This document shows positions 3,363 to 42,655 of a stretch of 64,000 nucleotides of DNA, in pieces (the stretch's first letter is position 1; every line of letters starts with the position of its first letter). The translations under genes were made by a program, and so were the position numbers. The DNA is from Saccharothrix syringae (GTDB taxonomy: Bacteria > Actinomycetota > Actinomycetes > Mycobacteriales > Pseudonocardiaceae), in contig NZ_CP034550.1 in assembly GCF_009498035.1 (NCBI RefSeq), forward strand, positions 9,300,001 through 9,364,000. The letters run 5' to 3'. The notes beneath the pieces were generated by a model. It searched no databases. It was given only the letters and a program-made list of their open reading frames with translations, and was not told where the DNA came from.

Positions 3363-3561
3363 GAGTCATGCACTCAACACCCGCGTGTCATGCATCCAGC
3401 CCCCGCGTGTCATGCGCTCAAGCCGGGCGAGTCGTGCACTCGGTACCGGTGAGTTCGACGTTCAGCCGGTTCGTGCCGCAGGGCTGAATGTCGAACTCGG
3501 GAGGTCTGAGCGCATGACACGCCGGGTCTGAATGCATGACACGCCGGGTCTGAGCGCATGA
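3363..3561. repeat. Array of 22-bp units around a central palindrome (locus 1)
   Basis: Four 22-bp units run forward from 3363 (3363, 3385, 3407, 3429), each beginning GAGTC or GTGTC and mostly continuing ATGC. A central inverted repeat follows: GAGTTCGACGTTCAGCC at 3451-3467 against the complement of 3482-3498, one mismatch in 17. Then units run in the opposite orientation (3499-3520, 3521-3542, and one cut at 3561), ending GCATGACAC. The last unit is interrupted by the left end of the IS. Unit-like sequence (GAGGACTC then GCGCGGGTT) resumes just right of the IS. The same family occurs near 36.8 kb and 42.6 kb. Confidence 0.85.
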
Positions 3562-3613
3562 GCGTTATTCAGAACTGCTGGCTGGGGTGGCCGGTGGTGA
3601 TGCCTGGGCTGAC

Positions 3614-3688
3614 AGCGCAACAGCCCTGCCCGGATAGGGTCGGTTTCCTCTCACAGAAGCACGACCACCAGGACAGGGCTGTTGCGCT
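3614..3688 (+). promoter_or_regulatory. Inverted repeat that buries the transposase start codon
   Basis: A perfect 15-bp inverted repeat: AGCGCAACAGCCCTG at 3614-3628 pairs with 3674-3688. The presumed TTG start codon (3682-3684) lies in the second arm. An mRNA started outside the element would contain both arms and hide the start; one started between the arms would not. This is the logic known from IS10 and IS50 for blocking read-through expression; its use here is inferred. Confidence 0.6.
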
Positions 3689-4491
3689 ACCACTCTACGA
3701 CCGGGCTGTCCCCTGCCCAGCTGCGGGAGCTGACCACCCGGATCCGCCAGGTCGTCCCCGATCCCGACCTGCGACGGGGACGACCGCCCGCGCTCAGCCT
3801 GCACCGTTGTGTGCTGCTCACGCTGGTGCTGCTGCGCCACAACCTGTCCCAGACCCTCGCGGCCGACCTGTTCGGCGTCTCCCAACCCACCGTCTCCCGG
3901 ATCTTCCGTCGCTTCACGCCCCTGATCGGCCAGGTCCTCTGTCTGCACACCCCGCGCCTGCCCGACCTGCCGGCCCGCCTGACCACGGTGCTGGTCGACG
4001 GCACCCTGATCCCCACCGGCACACGCGCCCACCCCGACCCGCACCCCACCGACGCGCCACGGCGCGGCCCGCACCCCAACCACAACGGCAAACACCGCAA
4101 ACAAGGACTCTCGATCCAGGTCCTGACCGACCGGCGAGGCCGACTGCTCGCCGTCCTCCCACCCCTGCCCGGCCGCACCCACGACAGCCGCGCCTACCGC
4201 CTCTCCGGCCTGGCCGACCTGCTGGCCACCACCGTCGTGATCGGCGATCTGGGCTACCAGGGCACCGGCGTGACCACCCCACGCCGCAAACGCCCCGGCC
4301 ACACCCGCCACACCCCCACAGACCAGGCATGGAACACCCTGCTCGCCCGGCACCGGTGGCCCGTCGAACGCGCCATCGCCCACCTGAAGAACTGGAAAAT
4401 CCTCGCCACCGGCTACCGCGCCCGCCTGGCCGAACTCCCCACCATCATCCGCATCGTCACCAACCTCGAGCACTACCGCCTGAGCCGATGA
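3682..4491 (+). CDS. IS5-family DDE transposase
   Basis: 269 aa, full length for the group with a helix-turn-helix plus DDE_Tnp_4 endonuclease domain. The HTH is at about residues 45-77 (LFGVSQPTVSRIF). The catalytic acids are D106 (VDGTLI), D189 (IGDLGYQG) and E229 (VERAIAHLKNW). Start TTG at 3682 gives RYHSTTGLSPAQL, the usual N-terminus of these proteins; no earlier ATG/GTG fits better. Codon use is as GC-rich as the host, so the element has long resided in high-GC actinobacteria. Confidence 0.92.
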   Translation: MRYHSTTGLSPAQLRELTTRIRQVVPDPDLRRGRPPALSLHRCVLLTLVLLRHNLSQTLAADLFGVSQPTVSRIFRRFTPLIGQVLCLHTPRLPDLPARLTTVLVDGTLIPTGTRAHPDPHPTDAPRRGPHPNHNGKHRKQGLSIQVLTDRRGRLLAVLPPLPGRTHDSRAYRLSGLADLLATTVVIGDLGYQGTGVTTPRRKRPGHTRHTPTDQAWNTLLARHRWPVERAIAHLKNWKILATGYRARLAELPTIIRIVTNLEHYRLSR

Positions 4492-4522
4492 CTTCTGAAT
4501 AACGCTCGAGGACTCGCGCGGG

Positions 4523-6424
4523 TTAGTTGGAGGTGAGGATCAGGGGGGTGAAGGGGGTTTGGTCGGCGGACATGGGGACCTGGAAGCGTTGGGCCAGGTA
4601 GGAGGCGATGTCGTGGAAGAGGGGGGCCGCGGTCATGCCGCCCTTGGTGGGGCGGTCGAGCATGATGCCCACCACGAAGCGCGGGTTGTCGGCGGGGAAG
4701 ATGCCCGCGAAGGTGATCCAGTGGTCGGAGTAGGAGTAGCAGCTGCACTTGGGGTCGACCTGCTGCGCCGTGCCGGTCTTGCCGCTGACCTGGTAGCCCG
4801 GCAGCGCGGCCTGCCAGCCCGTCCCGCTCTGCTGCTGCGGCGCCTTCTGCACCACGGCCCGGAACATGTCGCGCACGGTCTTGGCCGTCTGCGGTGAGAC
4901 CACCTGCACGCTCTCCGGCCGCGGCGTCTCCTTGCGGGTGCCGTCGGCCGACACCTCGGCCCGGATGACCCTCGGCGGGATGCGCACGCCGTCGTTGGCG
5001 ATGGCCTGGTACATGCCGGTCATCTGCAACAGCGTCATGCTCAGGCCCTGGCCGATCGGCAGGTTGCCGAACGTCGAGCCGGACCACTGGTTGCGCGGCG
5101 GCACGTAGCCGGGCTCCTCGCCGGGCAGCCCCGACTGCGTGCGCTTGCCCAGGCCGAACTTGCGCAGCATGTCCGAGAACCGGTCCGGCCCCACCTGCTG
5201 GGCGGTCATCAGGGTGCCGACGTTGGACGACTTGGCGAACACGCCGGTGAAGGTCATGTCCAGCACCTCGTGCTCGGTGGCGTCCTTGATCAACCGGTCC
5301 GCGACCTTGATCCGGTCGTCGACCTGGAGCACGCTGTCCGGCTGGTAGATCCCGTCCTCGATGGCCGCCGCCGCGGTCACCACCTTGTTCACCGACCCGG
5401 GCTCGAACACCGACGAGACCGCGACGTTCCGCATCTGCTCCTCGGTGGCCTTGCCGAAGTCGTTCGGGTCGAACGTCTTGTCGTTGGCCATCGCCAGGAC
5501 CTCGCCGGTCCGGCTGTCCAGCACCACCGCGGAACCGGTGCGCGCGCCCGTGTCCTGCGTGTACCGGGTGACCATGCGCTGCAACGCGTACTGCGTGTCC
5601 ACGTCCAGCGTCAGCTCCAGGCTCTTGCCGGGCGTGGCCGCGGCCAGCTCGCGCGAGCGGTCCGGGCCGGGGATGACCACGTCGTCGTTGCCCTGCATGG
5701 TGTCGACGATGCGCCGCCCGTTCTTGCCGGCCAGCAGGTTGTCCTGCGAGTTCTCCAACCCCATCAGGCCGTGCGTGGCGGGCGGCTCCTCGTTCTTGCG
5801 CCAGTTCGCCGCGCCGATGATGTTCGACGCCAGGTCGCCGTTGGGGTACACGCGCACCGCCCGGTACTCCGAGCCGATGTCGTCGTACTTGTCGGTGATG
5901 ACCGCGGCCTTGGCGGGCTCGACGTTGTCCACCAGCTCCACGTAGGTGGTGTCGCGGGACAGCTTGGCGAAGACGGTGTCGCGGTCGGTCTTCTGACCGC
6001 CGACCTCCTTGCCCAGCGTCTGCTCGACGAACGCGGCGATGTCGGCGATGCGCTGCTCGAAGCTGCCGATCTTCGGGTTGTCCTCCATCGCCTTGGCCCA
6101 GTTCGAGCGCATGATCCGCGGCACGGCGTACAGGGCGCGCGCCTCGACGCTGAACGCGAGCTGGTTGCCGTTGCGGTCCAGGATCGAGCCGCGCTCGGCC
6201 GGGATGTCGATGGGCGTGGCGCGCTGCTGCTCGGCCTGCGCGGACAGCGCCTCGGCCTGGAAGCCCTGCACCTGCACCAGCTTCACGCCCGCCGCGAGCA
6301 GCGCGCCGACCAGCAGCAGCCGGCCGACCGCCAGGCGCACCCGGCTGTTGCCCCGCCGCTTGGGTGCCGCACCGCGCACGGACAACGGGCGTCGTGCGGG
6401 TCTGCCCCGGCTGGGCCCCGGCAT
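4523..6424 (-). CDS. pbpB: PbpB (FtsI/PBP3-type), septal class B penicillin-binding protein
   Basis: Transpeptidase that cross-links septal peptidoglycan as partner of FtsW. 633 aa. Basic cytoplasmic tail, one membrane anchor (about residues 33-52), PBP dimerisation domain with RGSILDRNG, then the transpeptidase domain with all three motifs: S344-V-N-K (after FEPG), S399-S-N and K549-T-G. ATG start at 6424 shares one base with the ftsL stop (TGATG), which fixes it. Downstream, the insertion sequence and repeat array separate it from murE, so read-through into murE is doubtful. Confidence 0.96.
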   Translation of the reverse strand: MPGPSRGRPARRPLSVRGAAPKRRGNSRVRLAVGRLLLVGALLAAGVKLVQVQGFQAEALSAQAEQQRATPIDIPAERGSILDRNGNQLAFSVEARALYAVPRIMRSNWAKAMEDNPKIGSFEQRIADIAAFVEQTLGKEVGGQKTDRDTVFAKLSRDTTYVELVDNVEPAKAAVITDKYDDIGSEYRAVRVYPNGDLASNIIGAANWRKNEEPPATHGLMGLENSQDNLLAGKNGRRIVDTMQGNDDVVIPGPDRSRELAAATPGKSLELTLDVDTQYALQRMVTRYTQDTGARTGSAVVLDSRTGEVLAMANDKTFDPNDFGKATEEQMRNVAVSSVFEPGSVNKVVTAAAAIEDGIYQPDSVLQVDDRIKVADRLIKDATEHEVLDMTFTGVFAKSSNVGTLMTAQQVGPDRFSDMLRKFGLGKRTQSGLPGEEPGYVPPRNQWSGSTFGNLPIGQGLSMTLLQMTGMYQAIANDGVRIPPRVIRAEVSADGTRKETPRPESVQVVSPQTAKTVRDMFRAVVQKAPQQQSGTGWQAALPGYQVSGKTGTAQQVDPKCSCYSYSDHWITFAGIFPADNPRFVVGIMLDRPTKGGMTAAPLFHDIASYLAQRFQVPMSADQTPFTPLILTSN

Positions 6425-7071
6425 CACTGACCTCCTGGTACCGACTGCTCCGTCTGCTGCCCCGAGGCGGGCGGCTGCCCCGAAGTGGGCTGCTGGCCCG
6501 ACGCGGGCGGGGTGGTCGTCTGCTGCGCCGCGGTCGTGGTGGGCGGCGCGGACGAGGTGCTGGGCGGCGGGGGCGGCTCGACCGCCGACGGCGTGCCGTG
6601 CACCTCCACCGTGCCGTCCGGCAGTTGGCGCAGCCACGCCGGGTCGCCGGCGGGCAGCATCCCGAGCTTCGCCGCGGCCGCGGCCAGCTCCAGCGGCGAC
6701 TCCGCCATGGCCACCTCGCGCCGCAGCTGCTCGACCTGCCGCGCCAGCCTGGTCTCCTCGGCCCGCGCGTCCTGGAGCCGGTAGGAGTCCGCGGTCGCCT
6801 GGGTGGACAGCCACATGATCGCCGCGATGCCCACGCCGAGCACGACCATCACCATCACCACGAACGGCGCCTTGGGCGCGGGCGCGGACTGCCGCGTCAC
6901 CGCCGGCCCGCGCCGGGGCGAGGTGCGCTGCGCCCGCCGCGCGTAGGCCCGCTCGACGGCCGCCGAGCGGCGCCGCTCCGGCGGCACCGCGCGCAGCGCG
7001 CGTTCCCGCGGCTTCGCGGACCTGCCCGGCTTCGGCGACGCGCCGCCGCCGGTTCGTGCCGGCGCGGTCAC
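6424..7071 (-). CDS. ftsL: FtsL-like septum protein
   Basis: Small bitopic division protein. 215 aa: Arg/Pro-rich cytoplasmic N-terminus (1-67), one membrane helix (about 68-90, [20 protein letters not shown]), a short coiled coil ([20 protein letters not shown]) and a long periplasmic tail rich in Pro, Thr, Ser and Gln. By family knowledge FtsL bridges FtsQ-DivIC to the FtsW-PBP3 pair. The GTG start overlaps the rsmH stop (GTGA). The low-complexity tail of about 70 residues is longer than in enteric FtsL; such tails occur in actinobacteria. Identification rests on topology and position more than sequence motifs. Confidence 0.85.
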
Positions 7072-8015
7072 GTCGCCTCCCGGATGCGTTCCGCCGCCCG
7101 CAGCCGGACCGGGGCGGACCTGGGGTTCTCCTCGACCTCCCGCTCGGTCGCCTGCTCGGCGCCGCGCGTCACCAGCCGCAGCTCCGGTCCGTGACCGGGC
7201 AGCTCGACCGGCAGGTCCTGGGGTGTCCTCGAGGCGGCCAGCGCGGCGAACGCGCGCTTGACCATCCGGTCCTCCAGGGACTGGTAGGACTCCACCACGA
7301 TGCGGCCGCCGACGGCCAGCACCGACAGCGCCGCGGGCAGCGCGCGCCGCAGCGACTCCAGCTCCTCGTTGACCTCGATGCGCAGCGCCTGGAACGTCCG
7401 CTTGGCCGGGTGGCCGCCGGTGCGCCGGGTCGCCGCGGGCACCACCGCGTACAGCAGCTCGACCAGCCGCCCGCTGGTGGTGAACGGCTCGCGCGCCCGC
7501 TCCCGCACCACGGCCGAGGCGATCTTGCGGGCGAACCGCTCCTCGCCGTAGTCGCGCAGGATCCGGGCCAGGTCGTCGGCGGAGTAGGTGTTGAGCACGT
7601 CGGCCGCGGTCGGCCCGGTGCCCGCGCTCATCCGCATGTCCAGCGGCGCGTCCTTGGCGTAGGCGAACCCGCGCTCCTGCGCGTCGAGCTGGAGGGAGGA
7701 CACGCCGAGGTCCATCAGGATGCCGTCGACCCTGGCGCCGCCGACCGCCTCGGCGATGCCGTCGTAGGTGGTCTGCACGAACGTCACCCGGTCGCCGAAG
7801 GGCGCCAGCCGCCGCCTGGACAGCTCGATGGCCTGCGGGTCGCGGTCCAGGCCGATCAGCCGCACCCGCGGGTGGGCGCGCAGGACCGCCTCGGAGTGCC
7901 CGCCCAGGCCGAGCGTGCAGTCGACGAACAGCGCGTCCCGGTCGGCCAGCGCGGGGGCCAGCAGGTCGAGGACGCGGTCGAGCAGCACAGGCACGTGCCG
8001 CGCCCGCTCCACCAC
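7068..8015 (-). CDS. rsmH: RsmH (MraW), 16S rRNA C1402 N4-methyltransferase
   Basis: SAM-dependent enzyme that methylates N4 of C1402 in the ribosomal P site. 315 aa, usual length. Opens with [13 protein letters not shown], then the SAM-binding motif [14 protein letters not shown] (about 32-45), GLDRDPQAI, and the family signature [22 protein letters not shown] ribosome site precedes the GTG start at 8015. It sits between mraZ and ftsL as in most dcw clusters, and its stop overlaps the ftsL start. Confidence 0.97.
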
Positions 8016-8218
8016 GAACCCTCCCTGGATCGGTCCCCCTCCTCACGTCAAGCCAAGACGAAAATTCGGGTGCAGTCAGGTCCCCGCCCGCCCGTCGGAC
8101 CTGGCGCCGGGGAAGGTGCGCCAGGGCCGAAAGCCGAGCGGACCGAGGCCAAACGGCACCCGAAACCTCGAACGAACGACCGTGCTGAAACCACAGCCGG
8201 GCTGAACCCGCAACCGGG

Positions 8219-8650
8219 CTAGAACAGCCCCGGGAACACCTCCTCGCGCGTCTCCGCGTACCGCTGCTCGTGCTCGTCCATGTAGCGCTGCCATGCCTGG
8301 GCGTCCCAGATCTCCAGCCGGTTGATCGCGCCGATGACCACGCACTCCTTGGTCAGCCCCGCGTACCGGCGCAGCTCCGGGGCGATCAGGACCCGGCCCT
8401 GGCCGTCCGGCCGCTGCTCGTCGGTCCCGGAGAACAGGTAGCGCTGGTAGGCGCGGACCGCCTCGTTGGTGAACGGAGCCTCCGCCACCTTGCGCGCCAT
8501 CTGCTCGAACTCGGCCCGGGGGAACACGTAGAGGCAGTGGTCCTGGCCCTTGGTGACCATCAGACCCCCCGCTAGCGCGTCCCGGTACTTGGCAGGCAGC
8601 GTCAGCCGGCCCTTGTCGTCCAGCCTCGGGTGGTGCGTGCCCAGGAACAC
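8219..8650 (-). CDS. mraZ: MraZ, transcriptional regulator of the dcw cluster
   Basis: DNA-binding protein of the AbrB-like double-barrel fold that controls its own operon. 143 aa with the two family repeats, each marked Dxx[12 protein letters not shown] (10-19) and [10 protein letters not shown] (81-90). GTG start at 8650 chosen for the GGGAGG site and the typical opening [14 protein letters not shown]; longer in-frame reading upstream runs through the promoter. About 200 bp separate it from rsmH. Its probable operator lies 60-84 bp upstream. Confidence 0.97.
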
Positions 8651-8709
8651 GGCGACCCACCTCCCGGTGCCGGAACGCATGTCCGAACCGGCGGCGGGGC
8701 CCCCGTCTG

Positions 8710-8752
8710 CCCCACCGGCCGCCACAGTACCCCACTTTTCACCACAGTCAAC
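8710..8752 (-). promoter_or_regulatory. mraZ promoter with three overlapping MraZ boxes
   Basis: On the minus strand: -35 TTGACT (8747-8752), 16-bp spacer, -10 TACTGT (8724-8729). Three pentamers TGGGG (8730-8734), TGGCG (8720-8724), TGGGG (8710-8714) repeat every 10 bp, matching the TGGGN-N5 arrays known to bind MraZ. The -10 hexamer falls between the first two boxes, so MraZ bound there should block RNA polymerase. Both pattern and position are read directly; repression is inferred from the family. Confidence 0.8.
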
Positions 8753-9315
8753 GCTGAACCGGGTGGTTGATCGACCCGCCGCTCGACGTTTCCGCAGGTA
8801 GAGCGAAGATGGCGGCGGTGGAGGGCGGTGGGGGAAGTTGACCGGCACCACCTCGCCGAGTGAGCCGAACCGGGCCGAAATCCACCCGAACAGCCCAACG
8901 AAATCGGGCAAAACAGCGTCTTCGGGGACTCGGGTGGGGGATCGTGGCGGGGCGGTGGTGGAAGGTGGTGGGGCGGCGGCGAGGCGACGGTGGGACGGTA
9001 GCCGGGCCGGCGGCGGAGGGCAGTCCGGGCGGGTGTCGCGGCGGCCGGGTCGTGGCGGGCGGCGGGAGCCGTCGGCCGGGTCGTGACGGGTGGCGGGGAA
9101 TAGCGGCGGCCTCGGCGGCCGGATCGTGTCGAGTCGGTGGCGGAACGTGATAGAGCCGCCGGTGGACCGGGTATCCGCAGCATTCGTGGAAACCGGCAGC
9201 GCGAAACTGTTCAATCGGTGTGGGGCGCTTCGCCCCGGTTTGACACACTGCGTGAAACGCTCACCGCCACCGCGAACCGGTCGCGGGAGGGCCGCGCCCT
9301 GCTCCAGGAGGTCGA
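8753..9315. other. Spacer between the mraZ promoter and moxR
   Basis: About 560 bp. The middle (8930-9090) is strongly G-rich on the plus strand, with GTGGCGG-like runs and no convincing codon pattern. A hairpin GGGGCG-CTT-CGCCCC lies at 9222-9236, followed at once by a perfect TTGACA (9240-9245), but no fitting -10 hexamer was found. A 60-codon ORF (9137-9319) ends overlapping the moxR start; I see no homology that I recognise and do not call it a gene. Confidence 0.5.
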
Positions 9316-10446
<1,131 letters not shown>

Positions 10447-10447
10447 C

Positions 10448-11710
10448 GTGCGGGGCGCCCTGTCCGGCCTGACCACCAGGGGCCGGTGCCTGCTCGCGGC
10501 CGGGTTCGCGGCCGGCCTCTGCGCGATCGTGCTCAACGAGCGCGACCTGCTGCGCGTGGCGGTCTTCGTGGTGGCCCTGCCGCTGCTGGCGGCGTGGCTG
10601 GCGCAGCGGGCCCGGGTGGGCCTGCACGCGAACCGGCAGCTGCACCCGAGCCGGGTCCAGGTGGGCTCGGCGGCGGACGTGCGGGTCGAGCTGCGCAGCG
10701 CCGGCCGGCTGCCCACGGGCGGCCTGCTGCTGGAGGACGCGGTGCCGTACGCGCTGGGCGCGCGCCCGCGGTTCGTGGTGGAGCGGCTGCCGCGCAACAC
10801 GGTGACCGCGCTGCGCTACCAGCTCAAGCCGGTCATGCGCGGTGTCCAGCAGGTCGGGCCGCTGCTGGCGCGGATCACCGACCCGTTCGGGCTGGCCGAG
10901 TTCGACCGGGAGATGGCCGGTCGCAGCCGGCTGGTCGTGGTGCCGCGGGTGGTGCCGCTCAACGGGCTGCCCGGCGGTTCCGGCATGGGCTCCGGCGACG
11001 ACGGCTCGATCCGGCTGCGCGCCGGGCAGGGCGAGGACGACGCCGTGGTGCGCCCGTACCGGCACGGCGACGACCTGCGGAAGGTGCACTGGCGCTCGAC
11101 CGCGCGGCGCGACGAGCTGATGGTGCGCGTGGAGGAGCGGCCGTGGCGCGGCGGCACGACCGTGCTGCTGGACCACCGGCTGGCCGCGCACCGCGGCGGC
11201 GGGCCCGGCGCGAGCCTGGAGTGGGCGGTGTCGTTCGCCGCGTCCGTCTGCCTGCACCTGCACCGGTACGGCCACCAGGTGCGCCTGGTCGGCGACGACG
11301 GCCGGGTGCTGGCGGGCGGTCCGGGCGACTCCGGGTACAGCGACGCGGTGGTGCTCGACGCGCTGGCCGCGCTCCAGCCCTCGCACCGGCGCGAACCGGC
11401 GGTGGGCGACCCCGGCGCGGGTCAGGAGGTCATCGCGGTGCTGGGCGGCTGCACACCGGCGGCGGTCGACGCGCTGGTGCGCAACCGGCCGCGCGGGATG
11501 CGCAGCCTGGCGGTGGTGCTGGACGTGGCGGCGTGGGCGTCGTCGTCGGAGGACCCGGCGCCGAGCGCGGACGACGCGCGGCAGCTGCTCGCCACCGCCG
11601 GGTGGGGCGTGGTCGTGGCGCGACCGAACACGCCGATGGGTCAGGTCTGGCAGGAGCTGTGCCACAGCGCGGGCAACCGCGGCCCGGTGGTGCGCACGGA
11701 GGTGGGCTGA
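10448..11710 (+). CDS. DUF58 domain protein (membrane-anchored, MoxR partner)
   Basis: 420 aa. Two N-terminal hydrophobic helices (about 14-32 and 36-52) and a cytoplasmic DUF58 domain whose signature VRPYRHGDDLRKVHWRSTAR occupies residues 201-220. DUF58 resembles a VWA fold; the protein is a plausible MoxR client, but its activity is not established. GTG start one base after the moxR stop; the gene is followed after 2 bp by the transglutaminase, so the three are one operon. Confidence 0.88.
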   Translation: MRGALSGLTTRGRCLLAAGFAAGLCAIVLNERDLLRVAVFVVALPLLAAWLAQRARVGLHANRQLHPSRVQVGSAADVRVELRSAGRLPTGGLLLEDAVPYALGARPRFVVERLPRNTVTALRYQLKPVMRGVQQVGPLLARITDPFGLAEFDREMAGRSRLVVVPRVVPLNGLPGGSGMGSGDDGSIRLRAGQGEDDAVVRPYRHGDDLRKVHWRSTARRDELMVRVEERPWRGGTTVLLDHRLAAHRGGGPGASLEWAVSFAASVCLHLHRYGHQVRLVGDDGRVLAGGPGDSGYSDAVVLDALAALQPSHRREPAVGDPGAGQEVIAVLGGCTPAAVDALVRNRPRGMRSLAVVLDVAAWASSSEDPAPSADDARQLLATAGWGVVVARPNTPMGQVWQELCHSAGNRGPVVRTEVG

Positions 11711-11712
11711 AG

Positions 11713-14154: not shown

Positions 14155-14169
14155 TTTTGGGAAGTGGGT

Positions 14170-31643: not shown

Positions 31644-31683
31644 GGGTTGTCCGCGTTGTGTGACGGAAAACTCGCTGGTCAGT

Positions 31684-34156: not shown

Positions 34157-34163
34157 GGTGCTC

Positions 34164-34169
34164 AGGGTA
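34164..34169 (-). promoter_or_regulatory. -10 element of the leaderless rimO promoter
   Basis: TACCCT on the minus strand, 7 nt before the GTG of rimO. Drives rimO-pgsA-cinA. Confidence 0.5.
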
Positions 34170-34325
34170 ACCGGCGCCGCCGCGGACCAGCGCCGGCCGG
34201 TCGGCGGGTGCCCGGGGACGGCGAAACGAGGCGGTAAGAAATCAGGCATATGCGCCCGAAGGATCGTTAGGGCACACCCACGTGCCGTAAGGGCCTCTGA
34301 CCGCTCGCCCGCCGACGCCGCGGGT

Positions 34326-34331
34326 TACTTT
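34326..34331 (+). promoter_or_regulatory. -10 element of the leaderless argA promoter
   Basis: TACTTT, 6 nt before the GTG at 34338, with no ribosome site. No clear ARG box was identified in the 150-bp divergent spacer. Confidence 0.5.
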
Positions 34332-34337
34332 TGCACC

Positions 34338-34838
34338 GTGACCGACCGGATCAACGTCCGTCGCGCCCGCACCGGTGACGTGCGCGCGATGAAAAGCCTC
34401 ATCGACCAGTACGCCGGCAAGGTGCTGCTCGCGAAACCGCTGGTGACGCTGTTCGAGGACATCCAGGAGTTCTGGGTGGCGGAGGAGGACGGGCAGGTCC
34501 TCGGCTGCGGTGCCCTTCATGTCCTCTGGGAGGACCTGGCCGAGATCCGGACGGTCGCGGTCGAGCCGGCGCAGAGCGGGCGCGGGATCGGTCACCGGAT
34601 CGTCGGCAAGCTGATCGAGACGGCGCGCGAACTCCAGTTGGAACGCCTGTTCGTGTTGACCTTCGAGACCGCCTTCTTCAACCGGCACGGTTTCGTGGAG
34701 ATCGACGGCACGCCCGTCTCCCCCGAGGTCTACGAGGAGATCATGCGGTCGGCCGACGAAGGGGTGGCGGAGTTCCTGGACCTCTCCTACGTCAAGCCCA
34801 ACACCCTGGGCAACTCGCGGATGCTGCTGCACCTCTGA
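34338..34838 (+). CDS. argA: ArgA, single-domain N-acetylglutamate synthase (GNAT)
   Basis: 166 aa GNAT acetyltransferase. First step of arginine synthesis by N-acetylation of glutamate; this short GNAT-only form is the one found in actinobacteria (Rv2747 in M. tuberculosis). VRRARTGDVRAMKSLIDQYAGKVLL at the start and the acetyl-CoA loop VEPAQSGRGIGHRIVGKLI are visible. It lies between rimO-pgsA-cinA-clgR and ftsK as in mycobacteria, which supports the name. GTG start set by the leaderless promoter. Confidence 0.9.
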   Translation: MTDRINVRRARTGDVRAMKSLIDQYAGKVLLAKPLVTLFEDIQEFWVAEEDGQVLGCGALHVLWEDLAEIRTVAVEPAQSGRGIGHRIVGKLIETARELQLERLFVLTFETAFFNRHGFVEIDGTPVSPEVYEEIMRSADEGVAEFLDLSYVKPNTLGNSRMLLHL

Positions 34839-34864
34839 CCATTCGAGCTTGAACTAGAATAGTG

Positions 34865-34893
34865 TTGACTCGACGATACCGGCGGGCCAGGCT
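34865..34893 (+). promoter_or_regulatory. Promoter of the MerR-type gene
   Basis: -35 TTGACT (34865-34870), 17-bp spacer, -10 CAGGCT (34888-34893), then 6 nt to GTG at 34900: a leaderless start with a good -35. The next upstream bases (TAGAATAGTG) are unusually AT-rich for this genome. Confidence 0.6.
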
Positions 34894-34899
34894 GGGCCC

Positions 34900-35751
34900 G
34901 TGGAGCAGTTGACGGTCGACGAGCTGGCGGTCCGCGTGGGCCTGCCCGGCAGCACCATCCGCATGTACCAGACCAAGGGCGTGCTGCACCCGCCGCGCCG
35001 CCAGGGCCGCGTCGCCCACTACGACGCCTCCCACGTCGAACGCCTCACCCTGGTCGGGCGCCTCCAGTCCCGCGGCTTCTCGCTGCCCGCCATCGCCGAG
35101 CTGGTGAAGGCCCGCGAGAGGGGCGCGAGCGTGGCGTCCGTGCTGGGCGTCGGCGAGGCCGAGGGGCCCGACGACTGGGTGCGGATCAGGGTGCGCGACA
35201 TCCGGCGGCTGGTCCCGCTCGGCGACGTGCGGCCGAGCCTGGTGGCCAGGGCCTCGCAGCTCGGGCTGATCCGCTGGCGCCGGGGCTGGCCGCACGCCCG
35301 CCGGTGGGCGCTGGAGGCGGGCAACCGGCTCGCCGCGCTGATGGTGCCCAGCGACGACGTGCTCGACAGCTTCACCGACCTGCGGCGCGCCACCGACGCC
35401 ATCGCGGCCAACTTCGTGGACGTGTTCGAGCGCCGGCTGTGGCCGCAGCTCGCGGACAACGCCGACCAGGAGGACCAGCTCGACCGGGTGCGGGCCCTGC
35501 TGGTCGAGCTGACCTACACCGCCGAGACGGCCGTGGTCGGCACGCTGCGCGAGTCGATCCGCGACGCGGCCGAGGAGTTCGCCCGCCGCCACGGGCTGGT
35601 GCCCGGGGACGACTTCCGGCCCGCCTGGTTCGAGGAGCCGGTGCCGATCGCCGAGCGGCTGGTGGAGGGGCCCGGCGACGACGAGGTGCCCGACGAGCCC
35701 GCGATCCGGCGGTTCCTCGACCGGGACGACCACGACGAGCCGGGCCGGTGA
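34900..35751 (+). CDS. MerR-family transcriptional regulator
   Basis: 283 aa. Winged-helix MerR DNA-binding domain (about 1-72): VDELAVRVGLPGSTIRMYQTKGVLHPP and the wing GRVAHYDASHVERL. The remaining 200 residues are helical and differ from metal-sensing MerR proteins: no Cys pair. Effector unknown; the long C-terminal domain suggests a small-molecule or protein ligand. Its own promoter is leaderless. A small membrane-protein gene follows on the same strand after 70 bp. Confidence 0.85.
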   Translation: MEQLTVDELAVRVGLPGSTIRMYQTKGVLHPPRRQGRVAHYDASHVERLTLVGRLQSRGFSLPAIAELVKARERGASVASVLGVGEAEGPDDWVRIRVRDIRRLVPLGDVRPSLVARASQLGLIRWRRGWPHARRWALEAGNRLAALMVPSDDVLDSFTDLRRATDAIAANFVDVFERRLWPQLADNADQEDQLDRVRALLVELTYTAETAVVGTLRESIRDAAEEFARRHGLVPGDDFRPAWFEEPVPIAERLVEGPGDDEVPDEPAIRRFLDRDDHDEPGR

Positions 35752-35821
35752 GGGGGTTGCGGCCCGCGCCGGCCGTGACCGCCGGCGTGGTCGTGCACCG
35801 CGTCCTCACCAGGCGGCCGTC

Positions 35822-36079
35822 GTGATCGCGCTGGTGGGCGCGCTGGTCGGGTTGCGCGCGGGCTACCGCTACGACCGCTCGATCAACCGCCACCCGATGC
35901 GCTCGGGCGTCAAGCGGCTGGTGTTCTGGCTGCTGCTGCTCCTCGTCGAGTGCCTGACCGTGCCGTCCGCGTTCGCCTCGGCGGGACCGCTGATCGGGCC
36001 GCTGGTGTTCGGGTACGTGCTGGCGGTCGGGCTGATCGGCCCGTGGGTGGCGGAGTACTACCGCAGGCGGTCGGCGTGA
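35822..36079 (+). CDS. Small membrane protein
   Basis: 85 aa. Two or three hydrophobic segments (about 1-11, 32-52, 56-76) and a basic end YYRRRSA. Not recognised. No strong ribosome site; a 25-residue ORF (35748-35825) bridges the MerR-type stop and this start with GTGA-like overlaps, so translation may be coupled. Moderate confidence from topology and GC-rich third positions. Confidence 0.5.
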   Translation: MIALVGALVGLRAGYRYDRSINRHPMRSGVKRLVFWLLLLLVECLTVPSAFASAGPLIGPLVFGYVLAVGLIGPWVAEYYRRRSA

Positions 36080-36118
36080 CCGCACCTCCTCCGCGCTGCC
36101 CGGGCCGTCGACGACTTC

Positions 36119-36146
36119 CGGGCCGCCGGGTCCGCGGGGCGGCCCG
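36119..36146. terminator. Hairpin after the MerR-type operon
   Basis: CGGGCCGCC (36119-36127) pairs with GGCGGCCCG (36138-36146), 10-nt loop, 40 bp beyond the small membrane-protein gene. Confidence 0.5.
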
Positions 36147-36272
36147 GCCGCGACCACCGCGTGCGGGCGCGGGTTCACCCGTCTTCGCCGCGGCGTGAGC
36201 CGTTCGGGGCTGTCACCGGTCGGGCGCACGGGGTAGTAACCCCTCAAGCCCGTACCACGAGGGGAAACGACC

Positions 36273-36749
36273 GTGAGAACCCTGCGCGACGCCCTGGCCG
36301 GCGTGCTCGCCTCGCTCGCCCTGCTGGCCGGTTCCGGTGTCGGCCACGCGACCGTCGACGCACCGGCCGTGACCGACGAGTACCTGTTCCGCACGGCGCT
36401 GGCGGAGTTCACCGCCATCCGGGCCCAGGCGCCGTACGCCGACCAGCTCGACTGGTCGTCCGACGGCTGCTCCTGGTCGCCGGACAACCCGTTCGGCTTC
36501 AAGTTCCTCCCGGCCTGCCACCGGCACGACTTCGGGTACCGGAACTACAAGCGGCAGGGGCGGTTCGACGAGTCGACCCGGCTGGCGATCGACAACAACT
36601 TCAAGGCGGACCTGTACTTCCAGTGCGCCGGGAACTGGGCGTGCAACCGGACCGCGGACCTGTACTACGCGGCCGTGCGCGAGTTCGGGGCCAGCGCGAC
36701 GCAGGCGCAGGTGGAGCAGGTGCTCGACCGCATGGCTCGCGGGGTCTGA
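36273..36749 (+). CDS. Secreted prokaryotic phospholipase A2
   Basis: 158 aa precursor. Signal peptide about 1-27 (LASLALLAGSGVGHA). The mature enzyme has the bacterial PLA2 core: CSWSPDNPFGFKFLPACHRHDFGYRN, with the catalytic H85-D86 dyad, and further cysteines for two disulfides (C66/C82, and QCAGNWAC). Hydrolyses the sn-2 ester of phospholipids, calcium-dependent in Streptomyces homologues. GAGGGGAAA ribosome site before GTG. The stop codon lies within the first unit of a 22-bp repeat array. Confidence 0.93.
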   Translation: MRTLRDALAGVLASLALLAGSGVGHATVDAPAVTDEYLFRTALAEFTAIRAQAPYADQLDWSSDGCSWSPDNPFGFKFLPACHRHDFGYRNYKRQGRFDESTRLAIDNNFKADLYFQCAGNWACNRTADLYYAAVREFGASATQAQVEQVLDRMARGV

Positions 36750-36860
36750 ACGCATGACACGCCCGACCTGAACGCATGACACGCCGGGTCTGGATGCATG
36801 ACACGCGCGGTCTGAGTGGAGGACACGCGGTGTCCGAGTGGAGGACACGCGCGGGTTCGG
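36742..36860. repeat. Array of 22-bp units, direct orientation only (locus 2)
   Basis: Five consecutive units end ACACGC: boundaries at 36742, 36763, 36785, 36807 and 36829, then a partial sixth. The first three carry GCATGACACGC, the last two GGAGGACACGC; unit length is 22 bp (21 for the first). It begins inside the last codons of the phospholipase gene and lies between it and convergent ftsK. Unlike loci 1 and 3 it has no central palindrome. Confidence 0.85.
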
Positions 36861-36895
36861 GGGGGTGTGCGGGGTGGGCGGCCGGGGGTGGGCGG

Positions 36896-39442
36896 TTAGT
36901 CCTCGGGGTCGTCCACCGGGCCGCCGCCTCGGATGATGTGGACCACCGATGGTAGTTCGTCCGGTTTGATCAGGACCTCGCGGGCCTTGGAGCCTTCCGA
37001 GGGGCCCACGACGCCGCGCGTCTCCAGCAGGTCCATCAGCCGGCCGGCCTTGGCGAAGCCCACGCGCAGCTTGCGCTGGAGCATGGACGTGGAGCCGAAC
37101 TGGGAGGTCACGATCAGCTCGGCCGCCTGGATCAGCAGCTCCAGGTCGTCGCCGATGTCCGGGTCGATCTCCTTCTTCTCGCCCGCCTTCGCCGCGGTGA
37201 CGCCGTCGGTGTAGTCCGGCTGCGCCTGGTCCTTGACGAAGTTGACGATCTCGGAGATCTCCTCGTCGGCGACGAACGCGCCCTGCACGCGCACCGGCTT
37301 CGACGCGCCCATCGGCAGGTACAGGCCGTCGCCCATGCCGATCAGCTTCTCCGCGCCCGGCTGGTCCAGGATGACCCGCGAGTCGGTCAGCGACGACGTG
37401 GCGAAGGCCAGGCGCGACGGCACGTTGGTCTTGATCAGGCCGGTCACCACGTCCACCGAGGGCCGCTGCGTGGCCAGCACCAGGTGGATGCCCGCGGCGC
37501 GCGCCTTCTGCGTGATGCGGACGATGGCGTCCTCCACGTCGCGGGGCGCGGTCATCATCAGGTCGGCCAGCTCGTCGACGATGGCCATGATGTACGGGTA
37601 CGGCCGGTACACCCGCTCGCTGCCCGGCGGCGCGGTGATCTCGCCCGACCGCACCTTCCGGTTGAAGTCGTCGATGTGCCGCACCCGGTTGACCTGCATG
37701 TCCTGGTAGCGCTGCTCCATCTCCTCCACCAGCCAGGCCAGCGCGGCGGCGGCCTTCTTCGGCTGGGTGATGATGGGCGTGATCAGGTGCGGGATGCCCT
37801 CGTACGGGGTCAGCTCGACCATCTTCGGGTCGATGAGGATCATCCGGACCTCGTCCGGCGTGGCCCGCGCCAGCAGCGACACCAGCATCGAGTTGACGAA
37901 GCTCGACTTGCCCGAACCCGTGGAGCCGGCGACCAGCAGGTGCGGCATCTTGGTCAGGTTCGCGGTGACGAAGTGGCCCTCGATGTCCTTGCCCAGCCCG
38001 ATGACCATGGGGTGCGCGTCCTTGACCGTGGACGGCGCGCGCAGCACGTCGCCCAGCCGCACCATCTCGCGGTCGCTGTTGGGCACCTCGATGCCCACCG
38101 CGGACTTGCCCGGGATCGGCGCGAGCAGCCGCACGTTGTCCGTGGCCACGGCGTAGGCGATGTTCTTGGTCAGCGCGGTGATCTTCTCGACCTTCACGCC
38201 GGGGCCCAGCTCCACCTCGTACCGGGTCACCGTCGGGCCGCGGGTGAAGCCGGTGACCTGCGCGTCGATGGAGAACTGGTCGAGCACCCCGGTGATGGCC
38301 TCGATCATCTGGTCGTTGGCCTTGCTGCGGGCCTTGGGCGCGTCGCCGTCCTTGAGGATCGTCGGCGGCGGGAGCTGGTAGTCGCCCTCCACCGCGCGCA
38401 CCACCAGCGGCGCGGCCCTCGTCTCCGGCTTCGGCTCGGGCGTCGCCTTGGCCTTGACCTTGGGCGCGACCGGCGGCGGTGGCGGTGGCGGTGGCGGCGG
38501 GGGTTCCTCCTCCAGCGGCAGCTCCGGCTGTTCGTCGGGCTCGACCGCGGCCGCGCGCCTGCTGCGCGAGGGGCGGCGGAGCTTGACCGGCTTCTCCGGT
38601 TCCTCCTCGGCGGCCTCGGCGAAGTCCTCCGGGTCGTCGGTGAAGCCGTCGAGCCGGTCGCCGCGGCGGTTGAGCAGCCCGCCGAGCCGCGCGGGCACCT
38701 GGCGGACCGGCACGTGCAGCAGGAGCAGCAGGCCGTAGGCGAAGATCAGCACCAGCAGGGGCCCCGCCACCCACGGCGTCAGGCCCTGCGCCAGGAACCC
38801 GCCGGCGAGGTAGCCGAGCGCGCCACCGGCGTCCCGCCGCGCCACCGGGTCCATCGGCAGCCCGCCGACGAGGTGGAACATGCCGAGGAAGCCGACGCCC
38901 ACCAGGACCGCGCCGATCACCAGCCGGGGCCGGGCCTCCGGGTCGGGGTCGCTGCGCATCAGCGCCACGCCGACGGCCAGCAGCACCACGGGCACGATCA
39001 CCGCGGGCCCGCCGACCGAGCTGCGCACGGCCACGTCGACCCACTGCCCCACCGGTCCGCCGGCCTGCCACCACACGCCGGCCGCGGCGATCACGGACAG
39101 CGCGATGAGGCCGAGCGCGATGCCGTCGCGGCGGTGCTCGGGGTCCAGCTCCTTGCCCCGGCCGACCGCGCGCACCACGCCCCCGGTGCCGCGGCTGAGC
39201 CAGCCCCACAGCATGCCGAACGAGCCACCCGGGGGGCCGGACCTGCGGGCGGGCGCCCTCCTGGCCGCGGGCCTCTTCGGGGCCCGGGACGACTTGGCCC
39301 GCGAACCACCGGACCGGGAGGCGGTGGAGCGGGAGGCGGTGGAGCGGGACGCGCCGGCGCGGGACGAGCTCGCACGGGGCTTCGACCCGGTTCCGGTGCT
39401 GCGGGTCGTGCCCTTGCGCGAGGTCCCAGATCGGCCGGCCAT
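36896..39442 (-). CDS. ftsK: FtsK/SpoIIIE DNA translocase
   Basis: Pumps chromosomal DNA through the closing septum. 848 aa. Basic Ser/Arg/Thr-rich start (1-90), four membrane helices (about 105-255), a linker with 11 consecutive prolines (coded by GGT/GGC repeats), then the motor: Walker A GSTGSGKS with K512, Walker [14 protein letters not shown], and the C-terminal gamma winged helix ([21 protein letters not shown]) that reads KOPS-like sites. ATG at 39442 follows TACGGT by 7 nt: leaderless. Synteny with Rv2748c. Confidence 0.96.
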
Positions 39443-39449
39443 GGTGTAT

Positions 39450-39455
39450 ACCGTA
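39450..39455 (-). promoter_or_regulatory. -10 element of the leaderless ftsK promoter
   Basis: TACGGT on the minus strand, 7 nt before the ATG of ftsK; no ribosome site. Confidence 0.5.
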
Positions 39456-39559
39456 GTCCCTCAAGCCCCGGGTGCCCCACGTGTCACGTGGGACGTGACG
39501 TGCGCTGCCAGTCGTCCATGGTTGCCCCGAACCCGGTGCGCCGGCACGTCGACACGCCG

Positions 39560-39565
39560 TAGCCT
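39560..39565 (+). promoter_or_regulatory. -10 element of the leaderless plsC-like promoter
   Basis: TAGCCT, 7 nt before GTG at 39573; no ribosome site. Divergent from the ftsK promoter 105 bp away. Confidence 0.5.
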
Positions 39566-39572
39566 GCCCGCT

Positions 39573-40343
39573 GTGTCCACACCACTGCTGTGGCGCGTGC
39601 TGACCGCCGTCGACGAAGCCGTCGTCGCCCTCAGCGGACGACTCGAAGTCACCGGCGACGTCCCGGCGGACCTGAGGGGCCGTCCCCTGCTGCTCGCGTC
39701 CAACCACATCGGCAACCTCGACCCGTTCGTGCTCATCGCGGCGTGCCGGCGGCTCGGCGTCGCCCCCCGCTTCCTGCTCGCGGGCGGCCTGCTCGACGCG
39801 CCGGTCCTGGGGCCGGCCCTGCGGGCGTCGGGGCACCTGCGCGTCGACCGCGCCTCGGCCGACGTCGGCGAGGCGTACCACCGCACGGTGGAGGCCCTCA
39901 AGCGCGGCGGCGACCCGATCGCCATGTACCCGGAGGGCCGGATCAGCCTCGACCCGGGGCTGTGGCCGGAGCGCGGCAAGACCGGCGCGGCGCGGCTGGC
40001 GCTCAGCGGTGGCATCCCGGTCGTGCCGGTGAGCCAGTGGGGCGCGCACGAGGCCGTGTACTGGGGCAACCTGAAGGTGCAGGGGTGGGCGGACGCCAAG
40101 CCCTACCTGACCTCCTACCTGCGGGGGCTGCGGAACCGGCCGACGTTCAAGGTGCACTTCGGCAAGCCCGTGGACCTGTCCGGCCTGGTGGACGGCAAGC
40201 CGGGTGACGCGCGGCGCGCGCACGAGCGGATCATGCGCGCGATCACCGAGGGCCTGGTGCCGCTGCGCGTCGACGAACCGGACCTGCCGAAGTTCCACGA
40301 CCCCACGCGGCCGACGACCGGTTCCAGCCCCTGGCGGCCCTGA
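39573..40343 (+). CDS. 1-acyl-glycerol-3-phosphate acyltransferase (PlsC family)
   Basis: 256 aa. Acyl-transfer enzyme of phospholipid synthesis. Catalytic HX4D motif NHIGNLDP (H45, D50), glycerol-phosphate pocket motif YPEGRIS (about 113-119) and VVPVSQWG all conserved. No strong membrane helix; peripheral association likely. In actinobacteria this gene often neighbours ftsK. GTG start from the leaderless promoter. Confidence 0.92.
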   Translation: MSTPLLWRVLTAVDEAVVALSGRLEVTGDVPADLRGRPLLLASNHIGNLDPFVLIAACRRLGVAPRFLLAGGLLDAPVLGPALRASGHLRVDRASADVGEAYHRTVEALKRGGDPIAMYPEGRISLDPGLWPERGKTGAARLALSGGIPVVPVSQWGAHEAVYWGNLKVQGWADAKPYLTSYLRGLRNRPTFKVHFGKPVDLSGLVDGKPGDARRAHERIMRAITEGLVPLRVDEPDLPKFHDPTRPTTGSSPWRP

Positions 40344-40455
40344 CCGGGCCTGGTCGAAAAAACTCCGGCACGCGTGTCGATCCGGCGGGCCCCCGTTCGA
40401 CGCCCTGGTGACGGCACGGAGCACAACCGCACCGAGCACGACCGAGGAGCACCTG

Positions 40456-41031
40456 ATGCGCACCCTGATCTCGACCGCGTTCGTCTCGCTCGACGGCGTC
40501 GTGGAAGCCCCCGGCGGGGAGCCGGGCTACCGCAACACGGGCTGGACCTTCAACGGCATCGAGTTCGACGAGGCCGCCTACGAGCTCAAGGCCCGCGAGC
40601 AGGACGAGGCCGCCGCCATGATGATGGGCCGCGTCAGCTACGAGGCGTTCTCGCCGGTGTGGCCGGGCATGACCGAGGAGTTCCCCGGCTACAACGCGAT
40701 GCCGAAGTACGTCGTGTCGACCACGCTGCGGGAGGAGGACCTGGTCACCAACTGGGGTGAGATCACCGTCCTGCGGTCGACGGACGAGGTGGCCGAGGTC
40801 AAGGGGGGCGAGGGCGGCCCGATCATCATCCACGGCAGCGCCGCCCTCAACCGCTCCCTGTCCGACGCCGGCCTGATCGACCGCTACCACCTGCTCGTCT
40901 TCCCGGTCCTGCTCGGCGCGGGCAAGCGGCTGTTCAGCGACACCGACAAGGACAAGCAGGACCTCGCGCTGGTCGAGAGCCGGTCCTACGGCAACGGCAT
41001 CCAGAAGCTGGTCTACGACGTCCGCCGCTGA
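40456..41031 (+). CDS. RibD C-terminal/dihydrofolate-reductase-fold protein
   Basis: 191 aa. Stand-alone NADPH-binding domain of the 'dihydrofolate reductase family protein' group: FVSLDGVVEAPGG at the start, MMMGRVSYEAF, IIIHGSAALNRSLSDAGLIDRYHLLVFPVLLGAGKRLF at the end. These accessory proteins are not FolA and their substrates are mostly unknown. GAGGAG ribosome site, ATG at 40456. Monocistronic by appearance. Confidence 0.88.
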   Translation: MRTLISTAFVSLDGVVEAPGGEPGYRNTGWTFNGIEFDEAAYELKAREQDEAAAMMMGRVSYEAFSPVWPGMTEEFPGYNAMPKYVVSTTLREEDLVTNWGEITVLRSTDEVAEVKGGEGGPIIIHGSAALNRSLSDAGLIDRYHLLVFPVLLGAGKRLFSDTDKDKQDLALVESRSYGNGIQKLVYDVRR

Positions 41032-41156
41032 CGGGGTGCGCCGGTCCGGGTGCCCGCGTCCGGTACCGGCCACCCCCGGCGGCGGACCGGCGCGCGGCCC
41101 GACACCCGGTCCCCGCCGGGCACCCCGCCCGGCCGGGTGACCGAGAGGAGGTCGGG

Positions 41157-41231
41157 ATGCGCGACAGGGACTGGACCGCGCGCCCGGAGAGCCGGGACTG
41201 GACCTGGCTCGCCGTCAACAAGACGTGGTGA
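41157..41231 (+). CDS. 24-residue Trp-rich peptide ORF
   Basis: GAGAGGAGG lies 6 nt before ATG at 41157. The peptide has 24 residues, four of them Trp, with an internal echo: RDWTARPES then RDWTWLAVNKTW. A 15-bp perfect hairpin follows 9 bp after the stop. Ribosome site, short ORF and immediate terminator make a compact gene. Function unknown: a leader peptide, a secreted-signal or RiPP-like precursor are all open; no modifying enzyme gene (P450, cyclase, dehydratase) is close. It lies opposite the degraded end of an MFS pseudogene, so chance is possible. Confidence 0.4.
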   Translation: MRDRDWTARPESRDWTWLAVNKTW

Positions 41232-41239
41232 CGACCTGA

Positions 41240-42455
41240 TCGGCCGCTCGCCGGCGGTGTGCCGGCGAGCGGCCGGTCGGCCCGCCGCCACGCCACCGCG
41301 CAGCCCGGGCACAGCAGCGCGCCCACCCCGCCGGCCACCGCGACCGCCGTGGCCGGGTCCCACGCGTCGGCCCACAGCCCGCCGACGAGGACGGCCACGC
41401 CCTGCGACGCGACCACCCCGACGCCGCCACCCCGACCGCCCGCTCCCGCTCCCCCTCCGGCGTGGCCCGCACGAACCCCGCCTGCGCCTGGAGCAGGTAC
41501 GCGGTGGACGCCGCCCCGGACAAGCCCCACAGCACGAGCGTCACCACCAGGCCGGGCCGCACCGCGCACGGCACCAGCGGCAGCCCCGCGCCCACCGCCA
41601 CGACACCCACCAGCCGCTGCCGCAGCGCGGCGGGCACGAACCGCACGAACAGCCACGCGCCCACCACGCTGCCCAGCGGGTCGGCCGCCATCAGCACCCC
41701 GACCGCGGTCGGCCCCGCGCCGAGCCCGTCGGCGTACGGGGCGGCCAGCGCCTCGGGCACCACGTACCAGCCGACCAGCCACGCCGGCAGCACCAGCACC
41801 CGCCGCCGGGGGTCGCGGGCGACCGAGGCGGCCACCCGCCCCGACGACCCGCCGGACCGCTCCGCCGCCCCGACGACCGCCCGGTCCACCAGACCGACCC
41901 GGAGCAGCAGCGCGGACAGCAGGAACGTGACCGCGTCACCGACCAGCGCCACCTCCGGGCTCACGGCGGCGATCAACACGCCCCCGCCCGCGAAGCCCAG
42001 CAGCTTCGCGGTCTGCCCGGTCATCTGCCGCACCGCCGGCCCCTGGTCGTACCGGTCGCCCAGGACGTCCGGCAGCACCGCCCCCCGGGCGGCGGCGAAC
42101 GGCGCCCCCAGCAGCACCACGACCACCAGCAGCGCGCACAGCGCCCACAGCGGCAGCCCTGGCCACGCCATCGCGGCGACGAGCGGGGCCCGCACCAGGT
42201 CGCACCCGACCATGACCTCCCGCCGCCGGTACCGGTCGGCGAGCCAGGACAGCAGCACCCCGCCCAGCAGCGCGGGCAGGAAGGTCAGCGCGTAGACGAC
42301 CGCCGCCCACAGCGCCTCCCCGTCCGCCCGTGCACCAGCACCGCCAGCGCGACCCGCGCCAACTGGTCGCCCAGCACCGAGCACACGTCGGCCGCCCACA
42401 GGAACCGGAACTCCCGCACGCCGAACACCGCGACCAGCCCGTCCCCGCTGCGCAT
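41240..42455 (-). pseudogene. MFS transporter, two frameshifts
   Basis: A former MFS exporter of about 400 codons. It starts MRSGDGLVAVFGVREFRFLWAADV at 42455; near 42335 one base is missing and the reading shifts into GEALWAAVVYALTFLPALLGG; near 41415 another base is missing (four Gs where five are needed) and the frame shifts again into VVASQGVAVLVGGLWADAWDPATAV. All segments align with one intact MFS topology. Either the gene is dead or the sequence has two errors. CAGGCT lies 6 nt upstream of the ATG, a possible -10. The next gene upstream is an intact MFS relative. Confidence 0.8.
41241..41275. terminator. Strong hairpin terminator
   Basis: Perfect 15-bp stem CGGCCGCTCGCCGGC (41241-41255) and its complement (41261-41275), loop GGTGT. 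Ends the small Trp-rich ORF on the plus strand and the MFS pseudogene on the minus strand. Confidence 0.8.
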
Positions 42456-42520
42456 CCGGCCAGCCTGCCGCCCGCCGCGCCCCTCCCCCGCGCCTGTCAC
42501 CAACCGGCCATCACCCGCGC

Positions 42521-42655
42521 GAGTCGAACCCCCAGCCCCCTCGTGTCGAACCTCCAGCCCCCCCGAGTTCCACATTCGAGCCCACGCCGGGGGTGCGCGA
42601 ACGTGGAACTCGGGGGTCCGGAAGGTTCGACACTACGGGCGGGAAGGTTCGACTC
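42521..42655. repeat. Array of 22-bp units around a central palindrome (locus 3)
   Basis: Two forward units (42521, 42543; G(A/T)GTCGAACCnCCAGCCCCC), a central inverted repeat GAGTTCCACATTCG (42565-42578) against the complement of 42598-42611 with one mismatch, then two reversed units (42612-42633, 42634-42655) ending GGTTCGACAC and GGTTCGACTC. The stop codon and last codons of the flanking MFS gene lie inside the final unit. Same architecture as locus 1 with GTCGAAC replacing GTCATGC. Confidence 0.85.

Follow-up and report, generated by a model that had tools for sequence, protein, structure and literature searches.

The described systems nearest in kind to the repeats considered here are the REP and BIME elements. 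REP, BIME and REPIN elements are short intergenic repeats, present in numerous copies and frequently paired in inverted orientation, and are targeted by particular insertion sequences (ISs). In the portions of the literature available, REPs are reported to influence transcription termination and mRNA half-life (PMC8049555, PMC1525189), and ISs that target them are known (PMC1525189). Saccharothrix syringae contains arrays of tandem 22-bp units that are likewise dispersed, mostly intergenic, often mirrored and targeted by an IS, and three of them lie in the 64,000-nucleotide stretch analysed here (positions 9,300,001 to 9,364,000 of the forward strand of NZ_CP034550.1; the window). The arrays differ from REP-type elements in that the unit has 22 bp, does not fold on itself (as judged from folding of locus 2) and is joined head-to-tail in class order, and in that the Y1 (RAYT) transposase has no match in this genome.

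Streptomyces terminators are described, in the accessible part of PMC12207403, as longer, more stable and U-poorer, which makes U-poor, bidirectional hairpin ends plausible. Like the intrinsic terminators of high-GC actinobacteria, the arrays put a GC-rich hairpin of high stability a short way behind the stop codon, although only when they are mirrored; unlike them, they consist of tandem units, are mirrored and thus the same for both convergent genes, have no U-tract and evolve in concert. The TTF-I Sal boxes, tandem terminator-protein sites directly after genes, are likewise tandem sites right behind genes, but they belong to eukaryotic rDNA, and no partner protein was found for the arrays. 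DNA uptake sequences, which exist in species dialects, are also dispersed short words whose complementary copies make hairpins, while the arrays are built of 22-bp tandem units. Closely spaced complementary copies of the inverted uptake sequences form terminator hairpins in Neisseria and Haemophilus, according to the part of PMC2267715 that was available.

A 22-bp gene-end repeat family is apparently undescribed. The literature searched, with subscription papers outside its scope, contains no such arrays in the parts available; the accessible parts of RepRanger and of a stem-loop survey list no such family, and the terms 'repeat' and 'terminator' are both absent from the Saccharothrix espanaensis genome paper. 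Rfam 15, applied at the gathering score to six sources, returned the mraW RNA alone, away from the arrays, so the known named repeat family that the preliminary description of the loci had allowed for did not turn up there. At locus 3, Rfam gave only microRNA models far under their cut-offs.

On balance, the comparison of sequences makes it probable that the arrays are dispersed, concertedly evolving gene-end repeats whose mirrored copies act as long RNA hairpins and as 3' ends in both directions. As the comparison shows, the three window loci belong to a dispersed, non-coding family of repeats at actinobacterial gene ends, with 22-bp units that follow one another in fixed class order and arrays set directly at stop codons. 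Mirrored arrays would be transcribed into long hairpins with the innermost GAGTTCNAC pair as stem tip, and these would terminate transcription, or else define the 3' end of the mRNA and protect it, on both strands. An older intrinsic terminator would thereby become dispensable and be lost. Single-orientation arrays may belong to this family as seeds, remnants or passengers, and homogenisation would probably proceed through short-tract recombination between copies. The unit length equals two turns of A-form RNA, which is only suggestive.

The unit has the 22-bp consensus GWGT-NNNNN-RYTCAG-RCCCNGC, and its classes in this genome are defined by the pentamer (CATGC, CCTCC, CGAAC and TCNNC). The variable part had been described as a heptamer; its variability is real, but it is better delimited as the pentamer after GWGT (CATGC, CGAAC, CCTCC, TCNAC). 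Along the unit strand, the unit after GAGT-CGAAC is GTGT-CGAAC in 69 of 77 cases, and the one after GTGT-CGAAC belongs to the TCNNC class in 64 of 77. The first unit of a run is CATGC in 65 of 138 runs, CCTCC in 36 and GAGT-CGAAC in 25, and GAGT-TCNNC units terminate the run in 68 of 88 cases. The strict order GAGT-CGAAC, GTGT-CGAAC, GAGT-TCNAC is unusual among repeats; locus 3 is exactly the GAGT-CGAAC, GTGT-CGAAC, GAGT-TCNNC triple in mirrored form. The ordered array suspected from the three loci thus extends, as a fixed class order, to the copies across the genome. In the window, the arrays and the sequences that interrupt or border them are as follows.

3363..3472, + strand: locus 1 forward arm, five 22-bp units (GAGT-CATGC, GTGT-CATGC twice, GAGT-CGTGC, innermost GAGT-TCGAC)
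3477..3560, - strand: locus 1 reverse arm (GAGT-TCGAC at 3477-3498, GTGT-CATGC twice at 3499-3542, cut CATGC unit at 3543-3560)
3560..4507 (ends approximate), + strand: IS5-like insertion sequence within the locus 1 array, transposase open reading frame 3811-4491 (DDE_Tnp_4), ends AGCGTTATTCAGAA
4508..4522, - strand: array remnant between the IS and the ftsI stop codon, 15 bp of repeat, TAA-CCCGCGC-GAGTCCTC
36717..36738, - strand: decayed unit of locus 2, score 14, encoding part of the phospholipase A2-like C-terminus (gene 36273-36749)
36739..36848, - strand: locus 2, five units in the same orientation (along the + strand CATGC three times, then CCTCC twice)
42521..42586, + strand: locus 3 forward arm, the fixed triple GAGT-CGAAC, GTGT-CGAAC, GAGT-TCCAC
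42590..42655, - strand: locus 3 reverse arm, GAGT-TCCAC, GTGT-CGAAC, GAGT-CGAAC

These unit coordinates confirm the 22-bp register at all three loci, and loci 1 and 3 are mirrored, with forward and reverse units in both, as first reported. The sequence starting GAGTTC at their centre exists, but it is not a separate palindrome; it consists of the innermost + unit facing the innermost - unit, both of the GAGTT class. A unit finder with weights chosen by eye on this genome, counting at least three units as an array, detects just these three arrays in the window, compared with a mean of 0.15 and a maximum of 1 in 40 dinucleotide shuffles. Locus 2 provides the TGA stop (36747-36749) of the + strand phospholipase A2-like gene 36273-36749, which in a by-eye comparison is longer than the coding ends of its relatives and whose convergent neighbour is an ftsK-like gene (36896-39214). 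The C-terminus and stop of a major facilitator superfamily gene (42633-43793, - strand) are encoded by the outer unit of locus 3. The genes at loci 2 and 3 therefore end inside the array, and their C-terminal codons and stop come from it.

The genome is a single contig of 10.93 Mb, with the window at 9.30-9.36 Mb, and the family is far from confined to the three copies first noticed. BLAST with locus 1 finds at least 106 matching places (best 40 of 198 candidates), and the strict unit pattern GWGTNNNNNRYTCAGNCC occurs 92 times, its reversed form not at all. The fetched genome regions hold at least 83 arrays of three or more units, with 635 units; this is a lower bound, as arrays were counted in regions around strict-unit matches plus 15 further 20-kb regions, and one of 84 arrays was excluded because it lies inside a gene and is not array-like. 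Thirty-nine of the 83 are mirrored. Twelve of the 15 further regions, all from the array-poor half of the chromosome, contain no array of at least three units (region L085 has a two-unit match), while of the three regions taken from the other half, one (L086) contains an array, which is included in the 83. In total, 77 of the 83 arrays lie in the chromosome half centred on position 1, that is, at most a quarter of the genome length away from it. Position 1 is presumably the origin, a reading that follows from a pbpA-like match at 26 kb and from known gene order. In the congener G015, the array matches listed likewise lie around a pbpA-like match (G000 denotes this genome, other G numbers the compared congeners).

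Placement was assessed with genes called by our own codon-score gene caller. Of the 83 arrays, 35 lie in gaps between convergent genes, a class that makes up 166 of the 928 adjacent gene pairs of the fetched regions (p 1e-6), whereas six lie in divergent gaps, which account for 172 of 928 (p 0.007); array-bearing pairs are included in both backgrounds. Among these six is locus 1, separated from ftsI by the IS. Sense junctions usually read stop-CCCCGCGC-GWGT, and 28 of the 55 that fall within -40 to 60 nt of the stop lie at 5-9 nt. Of 37 antisense junctions in that range, eight are at exactly -11, where the unit's own TGA is the stop codon. Single arrays in codirectional gaps number about 9 sense and 14 antisense by eye, so a preference for the sense orientation was not found among them.

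The 3' ends of five genes (upp, ftsZ, thioesterase, ftsI and ftsK) were compared in 25 congeners, with the same three-unit threshold. The 14 array-bearing species form one clade in a four-protein tree (split support 0.997). All 14 clade species have a mirrored array behind upp and 12 of them have one behind ftsZ, but none of the 11 other species has one at either gene. Behind ftsZ, the mirrored array of G015 is located after an ordinary hairpin, G013 has an ordinary hairpin with two units behind it, and G020 has no array. The thioesterase gene carries antisense single-orientation arrays in nine of the 14 clade species, partly degenerate in G015, and outside the clade an irregular sense set is present in G019. 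Array similarity in dialect is 0.47 for different genes of the same species (28 pairs) and 0.21 for the same gene in different species (193 pairs), a contrast reached in none of 5000 permutations. Place and layout are thus kept at upp, ftsZ and the thioesterase gene while dialect similarity is species-wise, so that array position and layout go with the gene and sequence with the species, which, as judged from the 3' ends compared, establishes concerted evolution for the three genes.

At the ftsI and ftsK 3' ends, an array is present only in S. syringae among the 25, although for ftsI the congener G001 offers only about 90 nt before its contig end and the array of G000 is interrupted by the IS. 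Both are best read, from this distribution, as probable gains in this species. The array-free relatives are too diverged to locate a target-site duplication, the hallmark expected of a miniature inverted-repeat transposable element. In G015, alignment of 14 arrays picked by one arm pattern shows closely similar copies of about 200 bp, 11 of them with the same loop; their pairwise identity, including 35-bp flanks, has a median of 78% and a range of 67-86%. Seven array regions of G000 have a flanking ortholog in common with the sampled array loci of G015, three of them on both sides, in a count that omits one 32% match.

Strong folding is seen at loci 1 and 3 (z -9 to -13), and the stem of locus 3 reaches up to about 60 bp; for locus 2, with its single orientation, folding does not exceed that of shuffled sequences (z +0.2 and -1.4). 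In array-free species, a compact hairpin scoring at least 34 follows the ftsZ stop in 10 of 11 cases (one exactly 34; G016 has 24). Within the clade, this ordinary hairpin persists in G013, G015 and G020, the three species without an array near the stop, while the high hairpin scores of G001, G002, G007, G022 and G024 fall within the array itself. At upp, eight of the 11 outgroup species score at least 34, the hairpins of G009 and G011 lying by eye probably in the neighbouring gene, and the 14 clade species show the mirrored array in the hairpin's stead. The preliminary description had named a transcription end element among its options; arrays that abut stop codons, and mirrored copies that appear to replace hairpin terminators in this comparison, speak for it. 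The two genes constitute a natural experiment: most array-free species have an ordinary hairpin at the end of ftsZ and upp, and the sister clade has a repeat array there. This makes it testable how U-poor, GC-rich actinobacteria terminate between convergent genes, and how dozens of dispersed copies stay alike without a known transposase.

Within G000, a hairpin separate from the array is found in convergent gaps in 36 of 72 array-free cases, in one of 13 with mirrored and in five of 16 with single-orientation arrays; the numbers for codirectional gaps are 45 of 254, none of 17 and five of 19, and none of five divergent mirrored arrays has one. With divergent gaps left out, mirrored and single arrays differ (1 of 30 and 10 of 35, p 0.008). 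Several points weigh against reading such numbers, and the family as a whole, as evidence for bidirectional 3' ends. The within-genome comparison covers gaps of 40-700 bp and 70 of the 83 arrays at one score cut-off, and it is confounded by the fact that convergent mirrored arrays fill their gaps except for a median of 22 bp. Since they leave so little room, the codirectional contrast is fairer, with p 0.047 for mirrored (0 of 17) versus single (5 of 19) arrays and p 0.085 for mirrored versus array-free gaps. In addition, 44 of the 83 arrays are single-orientation under the rule used here and incapable of a long hairpin, the five divergent arrays other than locus 1 are still divergent on a second look at the gene calls, and the thioesterase gene is without a strong hairpin in array-bearing and in most array-free species. 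No U-tract follows the innermost hairpin in the sequences read, the following sequence being G-rich. Sense RNA is no stabler than antisense RNA, with mean differences of -0.5, +1.2 and -0.5 kcal/mol in three codirectional groups (p 0.53-0.85); selection on one RNA strand, gauged by G-U against A-C, is thus not seen, and it was set aside for want of an asymmetry. Among six equally long mirrored arrays (five from upp, plus locus 3), 18 of 58 pairs changed on both sides, and 84% of cells are paired, compared with 28-43% when the partner is slid, but letters shuffled between the sequences still pair in 79% of cells, although none of 500 shuffles reaches 84%. Homogenisation or recombination from arm to arm alone could be enough to produce these paired changes.

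An explanation that makes no demand on hairpins is that of selfish or neutral dispersed repeats with a REP/BIME-like ecology, which spread themselves and are tolerated where they do least harm, terminator loss near mirrored copies being a by-product. It is a tentative but serious possibility: ftsI and ftsK arrays confined to this species among the 25, the similar copies of about 200 bp at 14 loci of G015 with their shared loop in 11, the 44 single-orientation copies, the extension of arrays into coding ends and the landing of the IS in arrays are all as it would predict. Harder to accommodate are the retention of the upp array in every clade species, the arrays that are always mirrored at upp and ftsZ and always antisense-single at the thioesterase gene within the clade, the stop-codon register, and a missing hairpin that is tied to mirrored and not to single arrays. 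The REPIN/RAYT system, in which copies would spread through the Y1 (REP-associated) transposase, shares with the arrays small size, intergenic location, mirrored pairs, species-specific sequence and use as an IS target, as stated for REPs in the available parts of PMC8049555 and PMC1525189. It is nevertheless very improbable, given that Y1_Tnp (PF01797) has no match in G000, the genome richest in strict units among the 25 congeners, that its matches in five of the 25 fall both inside (three) and outside (two) the array clade, and that the direct-repeat array does not fold; an origin from REP/RAYT elements was dropped because G000 has no Y1 transposase match.

Single-orientation arrays call for a hairpin-free explanation, and a sequence-specific protein bound to the 22-bp repeats, serving as a polar roadblock to transcription or replication forks or as a nucleoid organiser, would provide one. 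The constant GWGT and RYTCAG that flank the variable pentamer, the even 22-bp register, the species-wide dialects, which would track binding specificity, and the concentration of 77 of the 83 arrays in the chromosome half around position 1 would all suit such a protein. No candidate for it was found, however, and the spacer part of the unit also varies by species (by eye), as plain homogenisation predicts. B-DNA has 10.5 bp per turn, at which successive units would drift by 1 bp each. We regard this explanation, which the preliminary description had also named, as unlikely. Equally doubtful is a genome-wide, species-specific 'gene-end code', in which ordered 22-bp words would be read by a putative trans-acting factor co-evolving with the pentamer, giving two-sided termination and a clade-wide replacement of intrinsic terminators. 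Dispersed, concertedly evolving repeats with bidirectional hairpin ends are the reading that we favour.

Other sources for the family were considered. A plasmid origin was dropped after an array of one relative gave no match in PLSDB; with regard to a viral origin, two pattern matches turned up in viral contigs. An autonomous element with arrays at its ends was also rejected, as clustering of the 976 proteins of the fetched regions (clusters above 35% identity) yielded no cluster consistently near arrays except the IS.

This IS makes the arrays the target of a specific insertion sequence, a property known for REPs. A whole-genome search with the transposase gene finds five full-length copies that are 100% identical (best 40 of 675 candidates), and all five are inside arrays (window 3560-4507, L009, L039, L041 and L062). 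Four copies are inserted cleanly in CCTCC units, between GTGTCCTC and CTCCACTC, with an apparent CTC duplication; the flanks of the window copy at locus 1 are unlike. A 76-77% relative is present at 8.27 Mb.

The 22-bp periodicity was also encountered in other genera, a check that had been proposed for other Pseudonocardiales. A two-unit pattern matched 102 stretches of a genome collection, 80 of which became loci. Most matches are in Amycolatopsis, Labedaea, Lentzea, Saccharothrix, Pseudonocardia and Nocardioides records, with isolated ones in Prauserella, Streptomyces and others. With five loci from non-actinobacterial records left out, 69 loci contain 73 distinct arrays of at least three units, the pentamers of which vary among genera and species. 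The 65 arrays with both neighbours include 35 convergent and no divergent cases, compared with 98 and 80 of 515 pairs. As the search pattern selected for the unit, the unit letters in common are partly so by construction, while the placement is not. A contig assigned to Jeotgalibacillus salarius (L090, 3380-3500) contains GC-rich units that resemble an actinobacterial array, by contamination or transfer. In the viral collection, contigs L375 and L376 match the two-unit pattern.

Locus 1 is located within a division and cell-wall cluster (window 1764-8167), between ftsI and a murE-like gene, names that come from reading the proteins; the mraW RNA of Rfam is at window 8058-8167. In region L020 (4736-5365), two arrays about 390 bp apart occupy a single convergent gap without a called gene between them, and the counterpart of this gap in G015 (L194) has one array. 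The G000 stretches 10328505-10330445 and 10542312-10544267 each hold two oppositely oriented arrays separated by about 1.8 kb, and the latter pair is conserved around the same genes in G013 (L227).

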